From positions 1 through 38,962 of IMG/VR virus record IMGVR_UViG_3300028581_000101: a DNA stretch of 38,962 bases; one strand, given 5' to 3'. Numbering within the stretch: the first letter of the stretch is position 1; every line of letters starts with the position of its first letter. Made by a program: the position numbers and the translations under genes. The stretch comes from a virus. The notes beneath the pieces are model-generated. The model was not told the DNA's origin. It worked only from the letters and a program-made list of their open reading frames with translations, and ran no database searches. Below, in pieces: positions 14,645-30,896 of this stretch.

Positions 14645-14872
14645 TCACAACCCCAGAATCTTCTTGATGAGCTCGCCAGCAACGCCCGGCCCGAATAACA
14701 CACACACCATCACCGCGTACAGCAAGTACTCAATCTTTGTCATGCGCTTGTCCCCATCACGCAAAGAACGGTCTATGCTGTTATAGCGCTCCGAGCAGAT
14801 GGCTTCATGCACCGCTAATTTTGTTTCTACCGAGTCCACAATTAAGCGTTCAGTGCGTCCAAACGACCCCAT
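14645..14872 (-). CDS. Small C-terminally anchored membrane protein (holin accessory-like)
   Basis: 75 residues from ATG at 14872 (an in-frame TTG lies at 14878). The N-terminal ~45 residues are charged and helical ('SVETKLAVHEAICSERYNSI', 'DRSLRDGDKRMTKIEYL'). They are followed by one hydrophobic C-terminal segment ('YAVMVCVLFGPGVAGEL') ending in Lys residues. This layout resembles XhlA-type lysis-accessory proteins, with a soluble helix and one membrane span. It overlaps the upstream gene by 31 bases and has no strong SD, so translation is probably coupled. Role inferred from topology and neighbours. Confidence 0.6.
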   Translation of the reverse strand: MGSFGRTERLIVDSVETKLAVHEAICSERYNSIDRSLRDGDKRMTKIEYLLYAVMVCVLFGPGVAGELIKKILGL

Positions 14873-15183
14873 GCCCAATCGGTAGCGGCAGACGGATCAA
14901 AAGGAATCGTAGCTTCTGGATTGTTTGGCTGTGCTGGATCAGGTTGTGTCCAGTTCGCACCGACTGTTGTCAAATACGCCAACAGGTCAGCTTTAGTGGC
15001 AACAGCTTCAGCGTCACCAATGTCATCGGTTTCAGAAATGCCAACCATGACCATGTCACGGGGGCTGGGAGTTGTAGGGTCAGCAACCACAAACACACCA
15101 CCAACACCTTCAGCGTGTAGGCAGAGGAATGTAGGGACTGTGCCGTCAGCGGCTAAACGATACTTCATCATGCGATGTGCCAT
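14842..15183 (-). CDS. Small hypothetical protein
   Basis: 113 residues with a strong SD (AAGGAG) before ATG 15183. The sequence begins 'MAHRMMKYRLAADGTVPTFL' and has a central acidic stretch ('ISETDDIGDAEAVATKADLL') and an Asp/Pro/Asn-rich tail. No family recognised. It sits between the glycosyltransferase and the lysis membrane proteins and overlaps the next gene by about 30 bases. No signal peptide or membrane segment. Confidence 0.6.
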   Translation of the reverse strand: MAHRMMKYRLAADGTVPTFLCLHAEGVGGVFVVADPTTPSPRDMVMVGISETDDIGDAEAVATKADLLAYLTTVGANWTQPDPAQPNNPEATIPFDPSAATDWAWGRLDALNA

Positions 15184-15185
15184 TT

Positions 15186-15896
15186 TTATGCTCCTTGGGC
15201 GTATTGCCCGCTAAAAAGATATGCGCCAAAGTGTCCAAGTTCGCACCAAGGTGCGGCCCAGACGGTTCCACCGTGTTCACGGTACAAGTGGCAGAAGTTG
15301 TAGTCCTCAGACAGAAGCTCGTGGTTGTAGTTCTGTACCTTGAAATAGTCGTACACCTTCTCGCCCTTGGGGATAGTTACACCCCCATTGTCATACCAGC
15401 CCACATGAGGCTGTAGTTTCTCAAAAACATCACGGCGGATCAACATAAATCCTGTGCCAATATGCTTTACTTGAAACGGCAAGTCTGGGCTAATCATCTC
15501 GTGACCGTCCAGCTTGTTTAAATTGAAAATGCCCGTAAGAACAGACAAGTTAGGATGGTTCAGAACAGCGCCCTGACGCACCTTATCCCAGTTGATTCCC
15601 TTCATTGGGACTGGGCCACCAATGATCCCTTTGTCAGCTTTAATCATTCGGGCAATGTCGTTTGCCACAAACTTCTGGTCAGCGTCAATAAAGATCAGGT
15701 GGCTTGCGTCCTTCATCTGCATGAAGTGGTGGGCAATAGTATTGCGACCACGTTGAACCAAGCTCTCGTTGCCAAGAAAAACGCAGGTTAACTTGATGCC
15801 GTTAGCCATACACGCTTCCTTGAGCGCCAGCAGGGACTGCACATATTCCGAACAGCACTGACCACCATACATTGGAGTTCCAACTACTAAATGCAT
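15186..15896 (-). CDS. Glycosyltransferase, GT-A fold (family-2-like)
   Basis: 236 residues. The N-terminal 'HLVVGTPMYGGQCCSEYVQS' is the sugar-nucleotide-binding start of a GT-A domain. 'ASHLIFIDADQKF' carries the DxD metal/nucleotide motif (Asp-Ala-Asp, residues ~71-73). 'IIGGPVPMKG', 'HIGTGFMLIRRDVFEKL' and 'LLSEDYNFC' complete the fold; the last Asp/Glu pair is where the catalytic base is usually found. It would transfer a sugar onto a glycan, DNA base or protein; the acceptor cannot be read. The gene overlaps the upstream coiled-coil gene (TAATG) and lies between fibres and lysis genes. Possible roles are host surface modification against superinfection or glycosylation of virion proteins. 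Confidence 0.82.
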   Translation of the reverse strand: MHLVVGTPMYGGQCCSEYVQSLLALKEACMANGIKLTCVFLGNESLVQRGRNTIAHHFMQMKDASHLIFIDADQKFVANDIARMIKADKGIIGGPVPMKGINWDKVRQGAVLNHPNLSVLTGIFNLNKLDGHEMISPDLPFQVKHIGTGFMLIRRDVFEKLQPHVGWYDNGGVTIPKGEKVYDYFKVQNYNHELLSEDYNFCHLYREHGGTVWAAPWCELGHFGAYLFSGQYAQGA

Positions 15897-16717
15897 TATT
15901 TGTTTTCCAACTGTGGTGTGTTGGTCAATGACGTTGGGTCAAAGACAGAGAAGCCACGACGAGCGGCAAACGTCTCTGGGTCTTTTTCCCACTTGTCAGC
16001 ACAAGCCTCAAGCCAGCGCATGGTCATCTCGTGCGTAGGAGCGTTGCCGTTGGAGATAAGTTGGTTCTCCATGTTCAGGTAGGCAAACACTTCAGCCTGC
16101 GCTTGAGCGGCGTTGATACCGAGGTCAAACAAATAGATCAGGTTGCCTTCGTCAATCATGCCGTTGCGTGAACGTGCGGCGTTCAGGGCTTGCTTCATAC
16201 ACGTCATGATGTGATAACGGGCCTCTTCTTTCTCGTAGTCCTCTTCGGTGATCTCGTTCTTGCCTACGCGCTCCAGCAGTTGGGCGTGCTGGTTCACCAA
16301 GAAGTTCATCTTGCGCAGTGCGCCGTTGACGTGGTTCTGAGTACCCTCAAGGTGGCTGTTCAGCTCCAGAATCTCGATCTCCATCAGCTCACGGTCAAGT
16401 GGATCGGTGGATGCCTCAAGGTCACGCTCTTTCTTCTTCAACTCGTTTTGCTTCTTGCGCAGGCCAATGTAGGCTTCTTGCAAAGCGGAGCGGGTGCGGT
16501 CAATTTCGGCCAAGGTGTGCTTGATGGAGCGGATCGGCGTGATGGCCGTCACGTCCAAAGTCACCTGCATGAACTGGCTGTGGGACTTGTGGAAGTTGCT
16601 GGTGTCGCGCACGACAGCAGGCATCCGGTCTTGGATGTTTTTCAACATCAGGTTGTACTCTGGCTTCGTTACGGCCAGAGCAGTGTTCATGTTGCCAAGG
16701 ATCAGATCATTGCTCAA
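15896..16717 (-). CDS. Coiled-coil protein of unknown function
   Basis: 273 residues from a TTG start at 16717, chosen because AGGAG lies six bases upstream; the open frame extends to 16810, but that extension overlaps the propeller gene. Residues ~75-165 form a long charged helix with Lys/Glu/Leu heptads ('LRKKQNELKKKERDLE' and 'ELMEIEILELNSHLEG'). The C-terminal part ('IYLFDLGINAAQAQAEVFAY', 'TMRWLEACADKWEKDPETFA') is also helical. No enzyme motif. It may be a structural or regulatory factor; its place after the fibres and before the glycosyltransferase gives no firm clue. Confidence 0.65.
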   Translation of the reverse strand: MSNDLILGNMNTALAVTKPEYNLMLKNIQDRMPAVVRDTSNFHKSHSQFMQVTLDVTAITPIRSIKHTLAEIDRTRSALQEAYIGLRKKQNELKKKERDLEASTDPLDRELMEIEILELNSHLEGTQNHVNGALRKMNFLVNQHAQLLERVGKNEITEEDYEKEEARYHIMTCMKQALNAARSRNGMIDEGNLIYLFDLGINAAQAQAEVFAYLNMENQLISNGNAPTHEMTMRWLEACADKWEKDPETFAARRGFSVFDPTSLTNTPQLENK

Positions 16718-16745
16718 AGGGTTCTCCTGTTTGTAAGGGGTTTCA

Positions 16746-17783
16746 TCATAAACCACCATGCACCGAAGACGCTGAAAACATCTGTTTGTTAACGGCCAAC
16801 AGGTCGCCAAAGTCTAGGGCCGAACCACCTCCGGAAAATGTCAGGTAGTCAATTACGTTAATATCTCCTCCGGAACTACCGCCTGCAAACAAGGCGCGTG
16901 TTGAACTGGAGACCCCATTCAAATCAGTTCGCGCCACGGTCAGCGTGCCAAAAGAGGAGGAGTTTCCTGTACTGGCAATTGTTATTGACTGCACGTCTGC
17001 GGTATTCACGCTATCGGGTAAAAGATACCCCCCTCCAAACACTCCGGTTGTGGAGTTTGAACACGCGCCGCCGCTTTTTCTAGAGGAGTTTAAGTCGCCA
17101 AAATTAACAGCATTGCCCGTTGAGGCGATGGTGACGTAGTTAATTGTGTTGAACGTAAGGCCGAGAGAACACGCAAATACCCCCCGAGTTGGAGACGCAA
17201 CCCCACCAAGACCTTCCCACACTTGAGTTAAATCTCCGAAGTCAAGGGCGTTGCCTGTGGAAGCAATCGTGATGTACTCAATAATATTGACGCGACCCGT
17301 TTCCGATTGATCGCCACCAGCAATAATTCCTCTAGTGGAATTAGAACAGCCCCCAAGAATAATTTTTCTACCGCTGCAATCCCCGAAATCCAAGGAGTTT
17401 CCAGTGGTGGCAATCGTCATGTACTGAATGGTGTTGCATAACCCTATGTTGTCGCTGCCAGCAGCCATAATACCTCGGGTAGCAGAAGAAATTGTGCCGT
17501 TTGCGCCCCTTCCTTGCGCTACAGCTAAGTCACCCACGTCAACAGCATTCCCGGTAGTTGCAATAATTACGTATTGAATTACGTTTACCATGCTACCAGT
17601 ATTGCCCCCGGAAAATATTCCAATAGGCGCAACATTCCCCGCAATCGGCCACAGTCCTTGCTGGAGCCAGTACGCCACCTGATCAAGCGTCCACACACCG
17701 GGAGCAGCGCCGTCTTGATACGGCCCAGCAGGAGTTACGGGAACGGGTCTAATGATGCCTGCGTTCCATGAAGAGATTGCCAT
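16746..17783 (-). CDS. Kelch-like six-repeat propeller protein C (putative receptor-binding)
   Basis: 345 residues. A ~50-residue N-terminal region contains 'PGVWTLDQVAYWLQQGLWP', a motif shared with the preceding propeller gene and probably used for attachment. Six repeats of about 50 residues follow, each with 'TRGxxAGG', 'NxIxYxTIAxTGN' and 'DFGDL' elements; repeats 1 and 5 are degenerate ('DVGDL', 'FGTL'). The protein ends 'SVHGGL', a half repeat. The pattern (Gly-Gly, Tyr, aromatic, Leu, Arg) matches kelch blades, so a six-bladed beta-propeller is likely. It starts 2 bases after the previous stop with GGAGG as SD. It is the most diverged of the three and looks more GC-rich. Likely virion fibre or receptor-binding tip. 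Confidence 0.7.
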   Translation of the reverse strand: MAISSWNAGIIRPVPVTPAGPYQDGAAPGVWTLDQVAYWLQQGLWPIAGNVAPIGIFSGGNTGSMVNVIQYVIIATTGNAVDVGDLAVAQGRGANGTISSATRGIMAAGSDNIGLCNTIQYMTIATTGNSLDFGDCSGRKIILGGCSNSTRGIIAGGDQSETGRVNIIEYITIASTGNALDFGDLTQVWEGLGGVASPTRGVFACSLGLTFNTINYVTIASTGNAVNFGDLNSSRKSGGACSNSTTGVFGGGYLLPDSVNTADVQSITIASTGNSSSFGTLTVARTDLNGVSSSTRALFAGGSSGGDINVIDYLTFSGGGSALDFGDLLAVNKQMFSASSVHGGL

Positions 17784-17785
17784 TT

Positions 17786-18697
17786 TTATAAACCTCCGTT
17801 AGCGTTGGAACATCCAGAAGGACTACTATTGGCATTTGCCAATAAATCACCAAAATCAGTTGCATTGCCTGTTGTGGCAATAGTAACGTAGTTAATTATG
17901 TTTGTATTATTGTTAATAGTAAGAACGGCTCTAGTGGTATTAGACGTAGCACTTCCATAAGATGATTGATTTGTTAAATCTCCAAAATCTGTGGCGTTGC
18001 CAGTTGAAGCAATCGTAATGTATTGAATTACATTAGTAGCTGATCCACTACTAATTATGCCCCTTGTTGAAGAACCACACCCAGCCAAACCATAGTCCTG
18101 CGATAATAAATCGCCAAAGTCAGTGGCGTTACCCGTAGTAGCAATGGTAATGTAGTCAATAATATTTGTAGTAGCAGCGCCAGTACCACCAGCAAAAATT
18201 CCTCTTGTTGAAGAAGAACATGAGGCAAGCGTAGACGCGGCTCTTGTCATGTCACCAAAATCAGTGGTGTTTCCAATAGAGGCATACGTAATGTATTGAA
18301 TTACGTTACTACCAACCCCTTCCCCGCCACCTGCAAAAATGCCCCTAGTAGACGAACCGCACCCTGCTGGCCCTTCTGCGTTACCTAATAGATCACCAAA
18401 ATCTGCCGCGTTACCAACAGAAGCAATAGTGACGTAATCCACAACACTACTTCCAGACCCGCCACCAAACACACCTCTTGTTGCTGAAGCGCAGGCGGCG
18501 GTATAACTTCTAGAAACTGTTAAATCGCCAAAATCTGTTGAGTTTCCAGTAGAAGTAATGGTAATGTATTGAATAACATTTGTACCACCACCACCAAACA
18601 AACCAATATCACCAGTTAAAGGCGGTAAAGGCCAATTACCAGCACCCTTGGCTTGATACTGCGCAGTGAGCGTCCAGACACCACTATACGACGGCAT
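17786..18697 (-). CDS. Kelch-like six-repeat propeller protein B (putative receptor-binding)
   Basis: 303 residues. The short N-terminal region 'MPSYSGVWTLTAQYQAKGAG' plus 'NWPLPP' resembles that of protein C. Six repeats follow, each with 'TRGxFAGG', 'NVIQYITIASTGN' and 'DFGDL' (one is 'DFGDM'). The chain begins inside a blade ('GLFGGGG') and ends with the other half of one ('GCSNANGGL'), as in propellers closed by pairing of first and last strands. ATG 18697 follows AGGAGG closely. The terminal Gly-Gly-Leu codons (GGA GGT TTA) form the SD of protein C. Likely a fibre-tip or receptor-binding protein; an alternative is a capsid-surface adhesin. Confidence 0.72.
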   Translation of the reverse strand: MPSYSGVWTLTAQYQAKGAGNWPLPPLTGDIGLFGGGGTNVIQYITITSTGNSTDFGDLTVSRSYTAACASATRGVFGGGSGSSVVDYVTIASVGNAADFGDLLGNAEGPAGCGSSTRGIFAGGGEGVGSNVIQYITYASIGNTTDFGDMTRAASTLASCSSSTRGIFAGGTGAATTNIIDYITIATTGNATDFGDLLSQDYGLAGCGSSTRGIISSGSATNVIQYITIASTGNATDFGDLTNQSSYGSATSNTTRAVLTINNNTNIINYVTIATTGNATDFGDLLANANSSPSGCSNANGGL

Positions 18698-18728
18698 AGA
18701 CGCCTCCTGTGAATTTGTTGTTAGGCAT
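18684..18728 (-). CDS. Possible 14-residue ORF between propeller genes
   Basis: ATG at 18728 overlaps the TGA of protein A (TGATG) and is preceded by GGAGG. It encodes MPNNKFTGGVYAVV and ends with TAG at 18684-18686, overlapping the start of protein B in another frame. Its beginning resembles the N-terminus of protein B ('MPSYSGVWT'), so it may be the remnant of a duplicated start, or a coupling leader that carries ribosomes to the next SD. Confidence 0.3.
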   Translation of the reverse strand: MPNNKFTGGVYAVV

Positions 18729-19921
18729 CAGAGACCTCCGTGGGCGTTAGAGCAGGCGGCAAGGGCGAAATTTGCAAATAACAAATCGCCAAAATCCACA
18801 GCGTTACCAAGTGACGCAATTGTCACGTAAGAAATTACATTGACTTGCGTACTGGTTTGTTGCCCACCACCAAAGGTCGCTCGTGTTGTATTTGCGCATG
18901 CAGCTAACTGTTGATAACTACCTGCAAAAGTCAAATCGCCAAAATCTGCGGCGTTACCAGTAGTCGCAATTGTTATGTAATTAATTGCATTATTGTTACT
19001 GCCAGCTATTAGCCCTCGGGTGCTATTTGAACATGCGGCGGCTTTGTCGTAACCATAAGGTGGTTCAGGTAGATCGCCAAAATCTATTGCGTTTCCAGTT
19101 GTGGCAATAGTAATGTATTGAATTACATTCCTGTCTGCGCTAAAAGTTCTGTCACCCGAAAACACAACCCCCCTTGTAGTAGACGCGCAAGAACTGCAAA
19201 AAGATGTACCAAATAAAAGATCGCCAAAATCTGTTGCGTTTCCTAATGTGGCAATAGTAAGGTATTGGATTACATTAAAGAATCCAGAAGCCTCCCCACC
19301 TGCAAAAACGCCCCTAGTGCTGCTTGAAAGTGCAGTTGGAGCAGTATTTGCAGCAAGCAAATCTCCAAAGTCTTGAGCATTTCCAAGAGTCGCTATGGTA
19401 ATGTAGTCAATTGAATTTACACCGCCACCGCCAGTCAGCCCTCTTGTTGCGGAGGCACAAGCAGCAATTCGGTCTAATGCGGCCACTAAGTCGCCAAAAT
19501 CTGTGGCGTTTCCAGTCGTTGTTATATTAAAGTATTGAATTACATTTACATCGTTACTTCCGTTATTTCCACCAGAATAAATGGCTCGATTACTTGTATC
19601 TTGTGGCGTCACACTCCCACTCGCCGCGCTATACGGCGACGGGCCATACGAGTTCAGCGCCCACACAGCAAACGTGTAAGCTGTGCCGTTGGTCAGGCCA
19701 GACACAGTAACAGGGGACGAGGCAGCCGTTGCGGTAACGTCACCGGGAGTTGAAATAGCGCCATACCCGGTAATAGCCGAGCCACCAACGTTAGCAGGCG
19801 GCGTGAACGCAACAGACGCAGAAGCATCACCACCCGTAGCCGTCCCAATGGTCGGTGCATTAGGGTTATTCAGCGGATCATAAAATGCTGAGATAAACCC
19901 AGAAGGAGGACGTAGTGGCAT
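18728..19921 (-). CDS. Kelch-like six-repeat propeller protein A with fibronectin type III domain
   Basis: 397 residues. The N-terminal ~20 residues ('PLRPPSGFISAFYDPLNN') are followed by a fibronectin type III-like domain at ~22-108 ('APTIGTATGGDASASVAFT', 'GGSAITGYGAIS', 'VSGLTNGTAYTFAVWALNSY'). Six ~50-residue kelch-like repeats follow, with 'SxxTRGVFAGG', 'NVIQYITIATTGN' and 'DFGDL' elements, ending 'ACSNAHGGL'. The repeat region starts at 'RAIYSGG', a half blade matching the terminal half. ATG 19921 has GGGGGG upstream. The gene is followed directly by its paralogue B. FN3 modules in phage tails usually mediate glycan or self contacts. Likely part of a receptor-binding structure. Confidence 0.74.
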   Translation of the reverse strand: MPLRPPSGFISAFYDPLNNPNAPTIGTATGGDASASVAFTPPANVGGSAITGYGAISTPGDVTATAASSPVTVSGLTNGTAYTFAVWALNSYGPSPYSAASGSVTPQDTSNRAIYSGGNNGSNDVNVIQYFNITTTGNATDFGDLVAALDRIAACASATRGLTGGGGVNSIDYITIATLGNAQDFGDLLAANTAPTALSSSTRGVFAGGEASGFFNVIQYLTIATLGNATDFGDLLFGTSFCSSCASTTRGVVFSGDRTFSADRNVIQYITIATTGNAIDFGDLPEPPYGYDKAAACSNSTRGLIAGSNNNAINYITIATTGNAADFGDLTFAGSYQQLAACANTTRATFGGGQQTSTQVNVISYVTIASLGNAVDFGDLLFANFALAACSNAHGGL

Positions 19922-19932
19922 GATGCCCCCCT

Positions 19933-20310
19933 TTAGGCGTTGATCTCTTCCCAGCTTGCATTCACCACAAGGTCGTTAGCCGTGCCAGCCGTTGCACCGA
20001 TGGATTGATTCTCCAGCAAGTAAAACGTAGTGGTTTTGTCGGTCACAATCAATGTAGCATCAGCAGGAACTGAGATTGTTGAAACAATCGGGAAAGCCGT
20101 ACCACCCAAGGCGGCGGCGCTGTACACGTTGATCGTGATGTCAGCGGCGGCTGTACCGTCTACGTTAGCAACGGTGATTGAGTTGATCTTGAAAACTTTA
20201 CCGCTAGATGCGGCATTGCTTACCAAGCTAGTAGCACTGGTGCTACTTAGCGATGTTTGCGAAGAGTTGCCATAAATGGCGGCTACGTTGACAATATTTG
20301 GATTTGCCAT
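19933..20310 (-). CDS. Small beta-rich virion protein
   Basis: 125 residues, almost entirely beta-forming: 'NIVNVAAIYGNSSQTSLSST', 'FKINSITVANVDGTAAADIT', 'FYLLENQSIGATAGTANDLV'. The start 'MANPNIVNV' with the 'L..T....LV.N...SGKV.KIN...V.N' layout matches small structural proteins common in aquatic phage genomes, predicted as one beta-sandwich. ATG 20310 has AAGGAA upstream. It lies between fibre genes, so it may be a fibre-associated or decoration protein. No further function visible. Confidence 0.6.
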   Translation of the reverse strand: MANPNIVNVAAIYGNSSQTSLSSTSATSLVSNAASSGKVFKINSITVANVDGTAAADITINVYSAAALGGTAFPIVSTISVPADATLIVTDKTTTFYLLENQSIGATAGTANDLVVNASWEEINA

Positions 20311-20319
20311 GATGGTTCC

Positions 20320-20637
20320 TTACAGACCGAAAATCATTGAGAAAGCGATGGCTTGACCTTTGGTCGCGCCGCTTGCAGGGGTTGAGAAGCTGAGGTTGCC
20401 AGCGCCATCTGTTGAAACAACTTGACCGCTAGTGCCATCCGCAGTGGGATATTTAAGGCCAGCAGGGTTGTTCATGATGCGTATAACCGTGCCTGATGCG
20501 TTTTCGGCGTACAGGGCCATGTCGGTGTTGGCGATGTTGAAGCCAAGCTCCCCCGGCAACAGGTCAGCCGCCAAAGGCACAGCCGCCCCTGTCGTTGTGC
20601 GATAAAGTTGAATTGGTGTAAAGCCTGCTTGTGCCAT
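20320..20637 (-). CDS. Short fibre-base protein
   Basis: 105 residues from ATG 20637; the open frame continues to 20667 but GGAGGAA and a TAATG overlap with the upstream fibre favour 20637. The N-terminus 'MAQAGFTPIQLYRTTTGAAV' and 'LLPGELGFNIANTDMALYAE' are the classic beginning of phage tail-fibre proteins, a 'PGELxxNIxDxxLY' attachment domain. In many relatives this continues into a long repeat fibre. Here it ends after 'GTSGQVVSTDGAGNLSF' and a short tail, so it is a truncated or split fibre base, possibly working with the 634-residue fibre upstream. Confidence 0.6.
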   Translation of the reverse strand: MAQAGFTPIQLYRTTTGAAVPLAADLLPGELGFNIANTDMALYAENASGTVIRIMNNPAGLKYPTADGTSGQVVSTDGAGNLSFSTPASGATKGQAIAFSMIFGL

Positions 20638-22541
20638 TAGAAAGTTCCTCCTGAGATTCCTGACCATACGGGAGCTGATGCACCCGCCGATGTTAACACC
20701 TGACCTGCTGTTCCAGCCGCAGTAAAGGCGTAAGCTGTACCAGTTCCATAAGCCGCACCGCCTGCTGTAGCAGTTGCAGTTGTGTTTGTGCCACCGTTAG
20801 CGATTGCCACAATTCCCGTAACATTAGATGCTGTACCAGTGGTGTTTTGATTGAGTGTTGGGACATCAGCCACTTGGATTGTGTTCATCACAACATTTGT
20901 GCCATCGCCACGCAAATACGATCCGCTAGTGACTGCACCAGCAAAGGCATTCATTCCTAACTGAGCTGATGTTTGACCAGAGCCGCCATTAGCCAAAGCC
21001 AAGGTGCCAGCCAAAGTAACCGCACCACCAGTTGCGCTAGAGGGGGTCAGACCCGTAGTACCTGCACTAAAAGTCGTCACACCACCAGCAGGGGCTGGTT
21101 GCCATGAGGCTGTTGTGCCGTTAGACGATAAAAGATAACCGTTAGCACCAATTCCCAAGCGGGTAGCGCTGTTAGTACCGTTACCAAGGATCAGGTCACC
21201 AGTTGTGGTGATGGGCGATAAAGCATTGAATGCGGCACCTGCTGTAGTCTGACCCGTTCCGCCATTAAGAATGGCTACAGTACCCGTGACGTTAGCCGAA
21301 TTGCCAGAAATATTGCCAGTGACTTGTGAGCCGGGCAAGCTCAAGGCGCTTAAAGTTGTTAGTGTTGCGTTGGTTGTGGCTGTAATGTTAGCCGCGGTGC
21401 CTGTTGTGTTTTGGTTAAGCGTAGGAACATCGGCAACTTGTATGGTGTTCATCACCACATTCGTTCCGTTACCTCGTAAGTACGATCCACTTGTAACCGC
21501 GCCTGCAAAAGCATTTATTGCCGCTTGAGCTGTGGTTTGACCTGAGCCGCCGTTGGTAAGCGCCAAAGTCCCCGCCAAGGTAATGGCGCCTGTGGATGCT
21601 GTACTTGGCGTAAAACCAGTGGTTCCAGCGGTAAAGCTTGTAACACCACCAGCCGCACCGTTTGCCGCGGCAGTAATCTGACCTTGAGCATTAACAGTAA
21701 TGTTGGCAGAGGTGTAGCTACCAGCGGTCACCGTAGTGTTAGCAATAGAGATTGTGCCCGTTGAGGTGATTGGGCCTCCCGTGAGACCCGTACCCGTAGC
21801 AACAGAAGTTACGCCAGTACCTGTGACGATTGCACCCCAAGCGTTGTTGGCATAGCCCTCAAAGGTTCCTGTTGAGGTGTTGTAGCGAAGCTCACCATTG
21901 TTTGGAATGGCTGGGCGCTCAGCGGTTGTACCAAACGGTAAGGTCACGCCCTCGACGCCGGGCAACTCTGGGTTGCTCGTAATAGCAAACGTAGGGTTAC
22001 CAGAGGAGCCGTTTCCATTGGTTATGGTGATCTGGTTTGCCGTACCCAAAAGGTCACGACCAGACACAGTCGTACCACCACCTGTCATGGCAAGCATACC
22101 TGTGCCAGACAAGCCAGCCACAGAAGCCGCAACACCACTCAGCGCAAATGTTGGGTTACCTGATACGCCATTGCCATCGGTAATGCTTAAACCGTTGCCA
22201 GAGGCTGTCAAAGTACGAGCTACTACTGCGCTACCAGATTTGGCAATAATCCCGTTAGACGCCGTTTCAAGGCTTCCTGAGACAGCGTTTAGGGTGATCT
22301 GTAAGGTAGATTGAGCACCACCATCAACCAAACCAATACCAGTACCGCCAGACAGTGCGCGACTGTTGGCTAGTTGAGGGGTTTGGATAACAGTGAGGTA
22401 CTGATAAGGTTGTGAAGGAGAAGCCGCAATAGCACCTGTCGTAGTTTGTACGGTTTGACCGTTCTGAACGATAGGAACGGACTCTGAACCAGTAATTGCA
22501 CCAGCGGCAGGTAATTGTGTGATCGTTACTTGTGCGGACAT
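20637..22541 (-). CDS. Tail-fibre protein with NGGTGQTTA-type repeats
   Basis: 634 residues, Gly/Thr/Ala/Asn/Val-rich. The N-terminus 'VTITQLPAAGAITGSESVPI' plus 'VQNGQTVQTTTGAI' is a typical fibre attachment region. A shaft of repeats follows: 'LALTNGGSGQTTAQAAINA', 'VAILNGGTGQTTAGAAFNAL', 'LALANGGSGQTSAQ', 'VAIANGGTNTT', with 'TFxAGTTGxTPS' spacers. A ~42-residue block including 'VVMNTIQVADVPTLNQN' occurs twice (repeat features at 20828 and 21392). Ends 'GISGGTF', whose codons include GGAGGAAC, the SD for the next gene. No enzymatic or chaperone domain at the C-terminus. Most likely a trimeric side fibre. Its start is one base after the zinc-ribbon gene stop, with only a weak SD. Confidence 0.75.
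   Translation of the reverse strand: MSAQVTITQLPAAGAITGSESVPIVQNGQTVQTTTGAIAASPSQPYQYLTVIQTPQLANSRALSGGTGIGLVDGGAQSTLQITLNAVSGSLETASNGIIAKSGSAVVARTLTASGNGLSITDGNGVSGNPTFALSGVAASVAGLSGTGMLAMTGGGTTVSGRDLLGTANQITITNGNGSSGNPTFAITSNPELPGVEGVTLPFGTTAERPAIPNNGELRYNTSTGTFEGYANNAWGAIVTGTGVTSVATGTGLTGGPITSTGTISIANTTVTAGSYTSANITVNAQGQITAAANGAAGGVTSFTAGTTGFTPSTASTGAITLAGTLALTNGGSGQTTAQAAINAFAGAVTSGSYLRGNGTNVVMNTIQVADVPTLNQNTTGTAANITATTNATLTTLSALSLPGSQVTGNISGNSANVTGTVAILNGGTGQTTAGAAFNALSPITTTGDLILGNGTNSATRLGIGANGYLLSSNGTTASWQPAPAGGVTTFSAGTTGLTPSSATGGAVTLAGTLALANGGSGQTSAQLGMNAFAGAVTSGSYLRGDGTNVVMNTIQVADVPTLNQNTTGTASNVTGIVAIANGGTNTTATATAGGAAYGTGTAYAFTAAGTAGQVLTSAGASAPVWSGISGGTF
20828..20952 (-). repeat. Long internal repeat, copy 2 (fibre shaft)
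   Basis: Encodes the segment from 'NAFAGAVTSGSYLRG' to 'LNQNTTGTA'. It is almost identical in protein to the copy at 21392-21516 (one Asn/Asp difference in 'RGNGTN' versus 'RGDGTN'), but differs at many third codon positions. Confidence 0.85.
21392..21516 (-). repeat. Long internal repeat, copy 1 (fibre shaft)
   Basis: Partner of 20828-20952, offset by 564 bases in the same gene and frame. Protein nearly identical, DNA clearly diverged at synonymous sites. Confidence 0.85.
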
Positions 22542-22542
22542 A

Positions 22543-22890
22543 TTATGGGCTCAGTTGGTCTAGGTTACCGTTGTTCTCAGGATCCTGAGTATTACCTTCG
22601 GTCGAGATGATGAAGCTACCACCAGTGATACCGTTTTGAGTTGTAACAATGTTGTTGTCATTGGCGGCAACGCTCACGTCAGGACGTGGGAATCTGATCG
22701 TTATTCTCTCAGTTTTTCGGGCTGGAAGTCTATAGGGATCTTTCTCATCTGCACAATTTTGCCCACAGACTTGGAGACCGGGGAAGTTCGGGTCAGGTCT
22801 CATCTCAGCGTGGGGTCTTTTAAACCTGCACCGATCACAAATTGCAATCGATAAGGTCGCCATTCCACGAGTATCAAGAAACATCGGCAT
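22543..22890 (-). CDS. Small zinc-ribbon-like protein
   Basis: 115 residues from ATG 22890, chosen because AGGTGG lies six bases upstream and ATG overlaps the endonuclease TAA; a GTG at 22899 would only add a few residues. The N-terminal half has 'ICDRCRFKRPHAEM' and 'PGLQVCGQNCADEKDPYRLP', i.e. a CxxC and a CxxxC pair about 27 residues apart, likely binding zinc. 'ARKTERITIRFPRPDVS' follows. The pattern C..C, 'D.N.PGL.VC', 'DP..LP.R' is common in small proteins near adaptor and fibre genes of aquatic phages; no role is known to me. The C-terminal part contains 'NGITGGSF', close to the ends of two fibre proteins. Confidence 0.65.
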   Translation of the reverse strand: MPMFLDTRGMATLSIAICDRCRFKRPHAEMRPDPNFPGLQVCGQNCADEKDPYRLPARKTERITIRFPRPDVSVAANDNNIVTTQNGITGGSFIISTEGNTQDPENNGNLDQLSP

Positions 22891-23525
22891 TAGATCCACC
22901 TCGCTTCGGTGATGTGTCGATACTTGCCATTGTGCCGCACATCTTGGTTATTTAACCAGCGGTACAAAGTGCCGTGACGCACACCTATGGAACGAGATGC
23001 CTCCATCATGGATGGATACTCAACGCCGTTGATGACGCATGGTCTCATTGGGTGGCAGTTCTTCAAAGACTCTACGTGCGCCTTTGACAGCTTTTTGCCA
23101 GACAAAGCGGCACTTATACGTGAGCGAACATCTGGCCTGCTCATAGCTTGCTTCAAAGCCACTTTTTGCTTTTCCCGAAGCTCTGGCGTTGCCATAGGAT
23201 TACGGTCGCGCATCATTTGAGCTTTAAAAGTTTTATGAGCTTCGGTATGCCGAAAGCCAGTAGAACCCATACCGCCGTTTGCAATGTTGACCAACTTATG
23301 GCCCATATCACGGAATGTGTCAATCAATGCAATCTCGTGGTCAAACGCCTCTTGCTCAGTGTTCCACTTGGCAAGCACCAAGACTGAAAAACCACCATGC
23401 TTTTCAACGGTACGCTTCCACACAACATTACGCCCGTTTGAACTGTGAGCGCGTTTGGACGATCCTTTACCTATGTAAAAGATTGAACCATCAGGCTTGC
23501 AGTGAGCGTATGTTAAAAACTGCAT
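22890..23525 (-). CDS. GIY-YIG homing endonuclease with C-terminal NUMOD-like DNA-binding region
   Basis: 211 residues. The N-terminal ~85 residues form a GIY-YIG nuclease: 'LTYAH' and 'IFYIGKGSSKRAHS' (YIG at 17-19, catalytic Arg25), 'WKRTVEKHGGFSVLVLAKW', 'EAFDHEIALIDTF' (catalytic Glu64) and 'LVNIANGGMGSTG'. The rest resembles NUMOD-type modules of homing enzymes: 'RHTEAHKTFKAQMMRDRN' (NUMOD3-like) and 'GVEYPSMMEASRSIGVRHGT' plus 'LYRWLN' (helix-turn-helix-like). It cuts at a specific DNA site to spread itself into genomes lacking it. It is a free-standing gene between the adaptor and zinc-ribbon genes, with its own SD (AGGT), and is the clearest mobile element in the window. Confidence 0.88.
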   Translation of the reverse strand: MQFLTYAHCKPDGSIFYIGKGSSKRAHSSNGRNVVWKRTVEKHGGFSVLVLAKWNTEQEAFDHEIALIDTFRDMGHKLVNIANGGMGSTGFRHTEAHKTFKAQMMRDRNPMATPELREKQKVALKQAMSRPDVRSRISAALSGKKLSKAHVESLKNCHPMRPCVINGVEYPSMMEASRSIGVRHGTLYRWLNNQDVRHNGKYRHITEARWI

Positions 23526-29517: not shown

Positions 29518-30465
29518 TTAGTAAGAGTTGTTTCGAGCTTCTTGCGCATATCGCTTAATCATCTTGGATCGCTTATCGGGATCATCCCAAAAGCCAGCAT
29601 CCTTCATTGCGCGCACTTGTTCTGGTTTCAGTACAAATGTGTTCCTGTTGGTGCTTCCGTTGACGCTTTCGCGACCAGAACTTGTTACAACACTCCTTGG
29701 TCTCTTAGTAGACGAACGTACGTCCGTGCTGTCATTGTACTTGTGAGGCAAGTACTTATGCAAGCGATTATCGAGCTCATTCCAATAATCAGGTGAGGTT
29801 GGATCCCAACCCTCTGAAACCAGAGTCTCGTCAATCTGCTTTGCAATCTTGGAATCGGTGTCCCGAGCGTTCGGGTCGTACCAATCATTCTTCTCCATCC
29901 AGTTCGCCGCCAAGCGTTGCAGGCGTGGATCTGGGACGTTTCCTTGGGACTGGCGAGGCTCCACAGCCGCCTTCTTAAAGTTGGTCAAAGCCTCCATCTG
30001 ACGACGCGATTCGTACATCATCTCTTGGGCTTCAGCCATGGCGTGACCGTCAGAAGCGCTTGCCGCCTCAGAGATCTTCATCTTGGCGTACTGCAAGCGA
30101 AGTTCTTGGTCTTCAATAGCCTTGTCGATACGAGCTAGGTCAGCAGAGTGGGTTTTGCGCTCCACAACGGACAAACGCTCCATCAATTCTTGGTTTTTGC
30201 GTTCCAAGAGCTGGAGTTTCATGTCCTTCTCTACGCCTGTCTTCTTAGCTAAATCCCGCTTGGCACGACGTTTTTCACGACGGGCACGTTGGTACTCTGT
30301 CTCGTCTTCAGGGGCTATATCGTCGTCTGTAGAGCCGCCTGACGCCATTTCACGGTCGTCCTCAATATCATCAGGGGATTCAATGCTGTCAGGAAGGTCG
30401 ATAACGGCTGAACCGTCCGCCTCTTCGGTGACTTTGATCTTATCAAGTTCGTTTTCTGTGGTCAT
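29518..30465 (-). CDS. Probable capsid scaffolding protein
   Basis: 315 residues. The N-terminal ~55 residues are strongly acidic ('DLPDSIESPDDIEDDREMAS'). Then comes a charged coiled-coil at ~58-165 ('RARREKRRAKRDLAKK', 'LERKNQELMERLSVVERK', 'RIDKAIEDQELRLQYAKMKI') and a C-terminal region with 'PDPRLQRLAANWMEKNDWYD' and a basic end ('DDPDKRSKMIKRYAQEARNN'). Acidic N-terminus, coiled-coil and basic C-terminal helix, just upstream of the capsid gene, is the usual scaffold layout; the basic end would contact the capsid shell. ATG 30465 overlaps the TGA of the co-chaperonin gene (ATGA), coupling the two. Confidence 0.72.
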   Translation of the reverse strand: MTTENELDKIKVTEEADGSAVIDLPDSIESPDDIEDDREMASGGSTDDDIAPEDETEYQRARREKRRAKRDLAKKTGVEKDMKLQLLERKNQELMERLSVVERKTHSADLARIDKAIEDQELRLQYAKMKISEAASASDGHAMAEAQEMMYESRRQMEALTNFKKAAVEPRQSQGNVPDPRLQRLAANWMEKNDWYDPNARDTDSKIAKQIDETLVSEGWDPTSPDYWNELDNRLHKYLPHKYNDSTDVRSSTKRPRSVVTSSGRESVNGSTNRNTFVLKPEQVRAMKDAGFWDDPDKRSKMIKRYAQEARNNSY

Positions 30466-30896
30466 AAGAATGCTTTCATTGCTAAGGGATCACCAATTAC
30501 TTTGGCGATGATTTCGTGGTCGTTTAGGATCATGAACAGGGCTGGATCTTCGTGATCGTCCTGTCCTTCAACCTTAACTTCCCACCGATCTCCGCCCCAT
30601 TTAGGGACTCGGATGTAATCGCCTACTTCGCACCATGACCCCTCGGGCCAGCCTTGCATGGTGTCGCGGTTTTTGAATGCGAGAGGGCCAACTTCGATGA
30701 CTTTTGCCACCATGTTGTTCCACTTCTCGCTCTCTTTGGTCTCTTCCACCAAAATGATCCCTGCGCTTGTCGTTTTCTGCTTTGTGCGACGTAATTGCAC
30801 CAAAATTCGACCACCTAATGGCTTAGCACCCGGGCTAACAGCGGGGAATGCCCACTTAACTTCAGCGTTTTCCAACACTTCGGGGTTATCGCTCAT
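30462..30896 (-). CDS. GroES-like co-chaperonin (phage Cpn10)
   Basis: 144 residues; bacterial GroES is about 97. After ~24 extra residues, 'KPLGGRILVQLRRTKQKTTS' aligns with the conserved 'P..DRVLVK' start of Cpn10. The mobile loop follows with 'SAGIILVEETKESEKW'; Ile47-Ile48-Leu49 correspond to the Ile-Val-Leu tripeptide that docks into GroEL. Then 'MVAKVIEVGPLAF' and 'VGDYIRVPKWGGDRWEV' match the 'G.V..VG.G' and 'GD.V.F....G' strands. It would cap host GroEL, as T4 gp31 does, to fold a phage protein, most likely the capsid protein encoded just downstream. It overlaps the previous gene by 11 bases and the scaffold gene by four. Confidence 0.85.
   Translation of the reverse strand: MSDNPEVLENAEVKWAFPAVSPGAKPLGGRILVQLRRTKQKTTSAGIILVEETKESEKWNNMVAKVIEVGPLAFKNRDTMQGWPEGSWCEVGDYIRVPKWGGDRWEVKVEGQDDHEDPALFMILNDHEIIAKVIGDPLAMKAFL

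Follow-up and report, generated by a model that had tools for sequence, protein, structure and literature searches.

Three adjacent genes of an uncultured bacterial virus, which we call A, B and C, probably encode virion adhesins that occupy three slots and bind the host surface through exchangeable six-bladed heads. We infer their virion attachment, oligomeric state, ligand and receptor binding, the last of these from their position in a tail-fibre locus, from variability specific to certain loops, from the swapping of heads and from alternative heads that are lectin-like. The genes lie in a 38,962-base IMG/VR record, the whole of which is called the window here.

Layout, repeat number and predicted fold

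An earlier note had described three tandem genes on this DNA, and all three (3/3) are complete, adjacent ORFs on the minus strand, with the following parts.

18728..19921, minus strand: gene A, 397 aa; N-terminal anchor (PPSGFISAFYDPL), then an FN3 domain, then a predicted six-bladed head
19622..19840, minus strand: FN3 domain of gene A, residues 28-100 (Pfam PF00041, E 2.6e-6)
18731..19588, minus strand: A head, residues 112-397, six kelch-like repeats
17786..18697, minus strand: gene B, 303 aa; short anchor (MPSYSGVWTL...WP) and predicted six-bladed head
18608..18697, minus strand: B anchor, residues 1-30, kept across slot-B relatives
17789..18607, minus strand: B head, predicted six-bladed kelch propeller (AF2 pLDDT 90.7 and Foldseek PDB matches)
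16746..17783, minus strand: gene C, 345 aa; anchor (NAGIIRPVPV..GVWTLDQVAYWLQQGLWPIAGN) and predicted six-bladed head
17625..17783, minus strand: C anchor, residues 1-53, which in relatives also carries 12-blade, seven-repeat, other six-repeat and ConA-like heads
16749..17624, minus strand: C head, six kelch-like repeats, the first with core DVGDL

The FN3 domain that the note had read in A is borne out, since it scores 28.0 bits against a Pfam cutoff of 25 and belongs to PF00041; gene A also matches a PHROG minor tail protein (2e-7). The GVWTL motif is indeed common to B and C. As the note had counted, A, B and C have exactly six kelch-like repeats each, spaced by 43-50 residues, when cut at the repeat cores, and HMM counts agree. 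Its 18 FGxL cores hold for a degenerate motif; read strictly, only 15/18 are FGxL, the others being DVGDL (C repeat 1), FGDC (C repeat 2) and FGDM (B repeat 3).

Relatives, sampled as the best-scoring matches and loci, follow a simple rule. Among 403 non-redundant, complete repeat ORFs, 315 have 6, 56 have 12 and 4 have 18 repeats, and none has 7-10 or 13-17. The first set (n=173) contributes 133 ORFs with 6 repeats, 27 with 12 and 2 with 18; the second (n=230), retrieved by other queries and filtered against the first, contributes 182, 29 and 2, respectively. The other ORFs are short fragments or split genes, or have 4, 5 or 11 repeats, and in most of those with 5 or 11 an undetected weak blade left an evident gap. 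Apparent 7-repeat genes in the first HMM count disappeared once core columns were counted. Since intact genes have 6, 12 or 18 repeats in two separately queried sets, the six-repeat observation goes beyond chance, and multiples of six are expected of a closed six-bladed ring but not of a solenoid. Two slot-A heads are each divided between two ORFs of ~3+3 repeats (L025 3532-4697 and L050 434-1605, where L numbers denote relative loci and contigs) and resemble broken genes, whether by frameshift, decay or sequencing error. One 46,883-base contig (L080 1-20861) has at least 12 six-repeat genes in tandem, and the N-termini of several of them resemble modules of cyanophage tail fibres (RFNTDSQKLEYYDGxxW).

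The proteins modelled were B, from 46 slot-B relatives, and one 12-repeat relative of C. The AlphaFold2 (AF2) model of B has a pLDDT of 90.7, a pTM of 0.87 and 24 strands, which run B-C-D, then through five rounds of A-B-C-D to a final A, so that blade 1 combines N-terminal strands B, C and D with a C-terminal last strand (residues 293-297, GCSN). This strand order fits the ring closure by first and last strands that the earlier note had proposed, and the AlphaFold and Foldseek check it suggested returned, for B, a propeller with six repeats and no solenoid. Top PDB matches in Foldseek are six-bladed kelch domains (KLHL12, Keap1 and the designed SAKe6), with TM 0.77-0.80 and rmsd mostly 2.3-2.9 A. 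The 12-repeat relative is modelled less confidently (pLDDT 79.5, pTM 0.52), with a low-confidence linker at residues 344-353, where repeat 6 gives way to repeat 7; over ~290 columns the model matches a single six-bladed kelch domain (target TM 0.90). The AF2 models, the Foldseek matches and the multiples-of-six counts together support a six-bladed kelch-type ring as the predicted fold of the heads; for the A and C heads of the window, the same predicted fold follows by homology.

No Pfam kelch family was found at curated cutoffs in A, B, C or the 46 slot-B members, and the heads gave no profile match to kelch PDB chains. Because sequence methods alone miss kelch here, the kelch assignment is one of predicted structure and not of Pfam membership. 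In INPHARED, tblastn of A and B returned FN3 matches only, or none, and a consensus repeat query returned Synechococcus phage S-SKS1 as the sole convincing match (tblastn E 7e-7). Putative adhesins of this kind stay unannotated because Pfam has no name for their head sequences and the isolate phage collection searched contains almost none of them.

Constant anchors and exchanged heads in a tail-fibre locus

In most relative loci the gene order is g125-A-B-C-g304-GT236-g113. The following neighbours, like A, B and C, are on the minus strand of the window.

20320..20667, minus strand: g115, with a weak tail fibre / baseplate wedge N-terminal match (PHROGs, E 0.0015)
19933..20310, minus strand: g125, conserved, upstream of slot A; its homologue in phage DSL-LC04, 84% identical, is annotated 'putative lectin'
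15896..16765, minus strand: g304, coiled-coil-like, conserved, downstream of C; ~80% identical compared to ~54% for the heads
15186..15896, minus strand: GT236, conserved, PHROG 1574; a relative is annotated putative glycosyltransferase
14842..15183, minus strand: g113, third conserved cassette gene downstream

GT236 gave no PDB match. It is ~80% conserved next to fast-changing heads, in which the repeat core often has GNAT (an N-x-T sequon; conserved CD loop). In one locus (L062) the g304-GT236 pair is duplicated in tandem as diverged copies (61/67% and 84/82%).

The adhesin locus lies between a tail-adaptor-like gene and tail/endolysin genes, and the portal and capsid have kin in Caulobacter, Roseobacter and Pelagibacter phages. 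In the nearest annotated relative, MW202545 (capsid 89%, portal 65%), genes matching those that flank the adhesin locus of the window enclose a tail-fibre gene and another annotated endo-N-acetylneuraminidase, which places the propellers in a tail-fibre locus. The cassette is also found beside structural genes just ~27% identical to those of the window (e.g. L013 and L022) and has thus apparently moved between lineages. Elsewhere in the window, a homing-endonuclease-like gene (22890-23525; PHROG 314, 1e-22) separates the adhesin locus from the tail-adaptor-like gene and is missing at this place in MW202545; an upstream 634-aa gene has an internal direct duplication (20818-21089 / 21382-21653, 71% identical over 272 bases); and a gene near the capsid genes (30462-30896) is a 58% homologue of the gene annotated co-chaperonin GroES in Caulobacter phage KcrB.

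Within this locus, A, B and C diverge far more than their neighbours. Median identity in same-locus pairs is ~50-56% for A, B and C vs ~80% for g304/GT236, and the neighbour gene (g304 or GT236) is the more identical one in 99-100% of locus pairs. Comparison of the window with L007 locates the divergence: structural proteins are 89-99% identical, the flanks 77-86% at the DNA level, and an 80% DNA block takes in the end of B together with the C anchor, whereas the remaining heads reach only ~65-70%, bar one short 77% stretch, which is largely the level of paralogues, and slot C goes from 6 to 12 blades. The constant part of A, B and C is the anchor rather than the propeller.

Heads also cross slots, in two clear cases. 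Identity reaches 77% between the B head of the window and the slot-A head of L004, and 89% between the slot-C head of L048 and the slot-B head of L029; both alignments start at the head boundary, and the L048/L029 one extends to the gene end. A third candidate, C of the window vs C of L043 (81%), is no swap and reflects ordinary similarity within one slot. Heads of other families occur on the same platform. When the C anchor served as the query, most heads attached to the best-scoring matches had 6 or 12 blades. In L275, a different six-repeat family (IFALG...KYTYSG) fills all three slots (3/3), and in L281 and L282 a seven-repeat family (YPWSGSGFG) does so (3/3), some of these alternative repeats having been counted by eye in the sequences. 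In L262, slot A has a kelch-like head, slot B a glycine-rich one and slot C three concanavalin-A-like domains (Laminin_G_3, E 3.6e-50), and the metagenome-assembled lake phage DSL-LC04 has, besides its g125 homologue, a ConA-like protein with a C-like anchor. These findings amount to the pattern of modular receptor-binding proteins (RBPs), an N-terminal anchor that is conserved and a C-terminal head that is exchanged. Relatives of the heads were also seen on contigs of bacterial MAGs or single cells (L084-L090; Parcubacteria, Epulopiscium and others), probably phage sequence binned with cells.

A variable face and the proposed function

Kelch topology puts the BC and DA loops on the same face. 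We compared codons in 12 head pairs in which every gene was used once, and set aside the entropy of regex-cut blades, which is biased by the cutting pattern. Residues changed in 20.7% of BC and DA loop positions vs 7.6% in strands and AB/CD loops (Fisher p 4e-26, residues within a pair being not fully independent), 10/16 gaps fell in BC loops, and dN/dS was 0.45 in BC and 0.33 in DA vs 0.07-0.17 elsewhere in the heads. With dN/dS <1 in every class, this means relaxed or episodic, rather than proven positive or diversifying, selection. KLHL20 uses its six DA loops and five of its BC loops to touch the ligand (PMC6720452). Diversification of the heads by a DGR was rejected, since no reverse transcriptase (PF00078) was present in 24 records, several of them fragments.

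Several other readings of A, B and C have to be weighed against these data. Plain tandem duplication of one tail-fibre gene, giving three copies without functional division, would agree with heads that all belong to one family and with blades that lack a position-specific signature, which we sought and did not find (identity was 57.4% within heads and 56-58% between heads); we nevertheless consider it unlikely, as three distinct anchors keep their order across many lineages and are each refilled, which points to three maintained slots. It is likewise improbable that the proteins decorate the capsid or neck and make the particle sticky, binding glycans on particles, mucus or cells with no role in host specificity. 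The FN3 domain of slot A and the ConA-like heads are of kinds often seen on non-specific surface displays, and phage kelch proteins are known in virions with their role unassigned (PMC5259590), but MW202545 has tail-fibre and endosialidase-like genes at this locus, between tail-adaptor-like and tail/endolysin genes, and head exchange and loop divergence are far above those of neighbouring genes.

That same annotated endo-N-acetylneuraminidase, together with the existence of propeller enzymes among tailspikes, could suggest that the heads are depolymerases, either galactose-oxidase-like or glycan-cleaving propellers. We regard this as very unlikely because the invariant residues of slot B are structural Gly, Thr, Arg, Phe and Asp found repeat-wide, not single catalytic ones, and Pfam gives no enzyme family match; the propeller heads themselves showed neither an enzymatic nor a carbohydrate-binding signature. 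Internal assembly scaffolds or chaperone-like proteins, unexposed on the virion, could be proposed insofar as we infer the virion placement of A, B and C, yet variation on one face and swaps for lectin-like heads are unexpected of internal proteins, which leaves this reading with hardly any plausibility.

The heads of A, B and C are thus probably interchangeable parts for gripping host cells. In the mechanism we propose, A, B and C would be three virion adhesins on a short-tailed phage, each consisting of a short, slot-specific N-terminal anchor that docks onto conserved tail parts and a C-terminal six-bladed kelch-type head, whose ring would be closed by N-terminal strands B-C-D and C-terminal strand A. 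The fast-evolving BC/DA-loop face would bind host-surface ligands while the strands and the other face stay fixed; whole heads would be exchanged, with the break where anchor meets head, both inside and across slots and phage lineages, and may also double or triple to 12 or 18 blades. Whether this is a shared, transferable three-slot platform of many aquatic phages, in which constant anchors carry swappable heads, mostly closed six-bladed rings, and in which gain or loss of whole rings only and recombination within and between slots give each phage its own trio of binding faces, we judge to be evenly balanced. If true, a stable anchor bearing a very regular, evolvable ring with one variable face would amount to a natural display system; one could ask how uncultured phages alter host recognition without redesigning the tail, and nature would supply variants by the hundred for a six-fold scaffold of which designed counterparts (SAKe6) exist.

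Comparison with known systems

Six-bladed kelch domains (KLHL12, Keap1 and KLHL20) resemble the heads in having six four-stranded blades of ~47 residues with Gly-Gly followed by an aromatic residue. In KLHL20, as in the B model, the C-terminal strand A closes blade 1, and its ligand face of BC/DA loops matches the variable loops of the heads (PMC6720452). A, B and C differ from all three in their 10-15% identity, with no sequence-level kelch match and no BTB or eukaryotic partner domains.

Jumbo phages have kelch-like proteins, among them CBB_550/552/554 of phage CBB and those of Pseudomonas and Yersinia giant phages; as in the window, several propeller genes of one phage are neighbours, and one of the three kelch proteins of CBB was found in the virion (PMC5259590). 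These kelch-like proteins give BFVD fold matches to the head, with a Foldseek identity of only 12-14%, and that account comes without slot anchors, a multiples-of-six survey or head swapping (PMC5259590). Propeller RBPs are represented by phi11, with a five-bladed platform, and by the putative PRD1 P2 and PhiKZ gp131 (PMC4901313); these are propellers like the heads but have five or seven blades, are non-kelch and come from a single gene, and the phi11 RBP is a trimeric multi-domain protein. S-SKS1 has related repeats, but eight or nine per ORF, in ORFs near the record ends in which no A-B-C anchors were seen.

The earlier note had suggested that no such phage receptor-binding system was described. 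This was too broad, since phage kelch proteins and propeller RBPs are on record (PMC5259590, PMC4901313), and it stands for the three-slot arrangement: in the literature searched, with subscription papers mostly outside it, we found no description of a three-slot cassette, of multiples-of-six heads or of slot swapping. What appears new is this combined arrangement, phage kelch proteins, propeller RBPs and modular RBPs each being known. The Klebsiella phage RBPs combine an N-terminal anchor with an exchangeable C-terminal specificity module (PMC8262889) and, like A, B and C, have conserved anchors and horizontally exchanged heads. They carry depolymerase heads on one or two RBPs, whereas A, B and C fill three slots between which heads also cross, and these heads are mostly six-bladed and without an enzyme signature.
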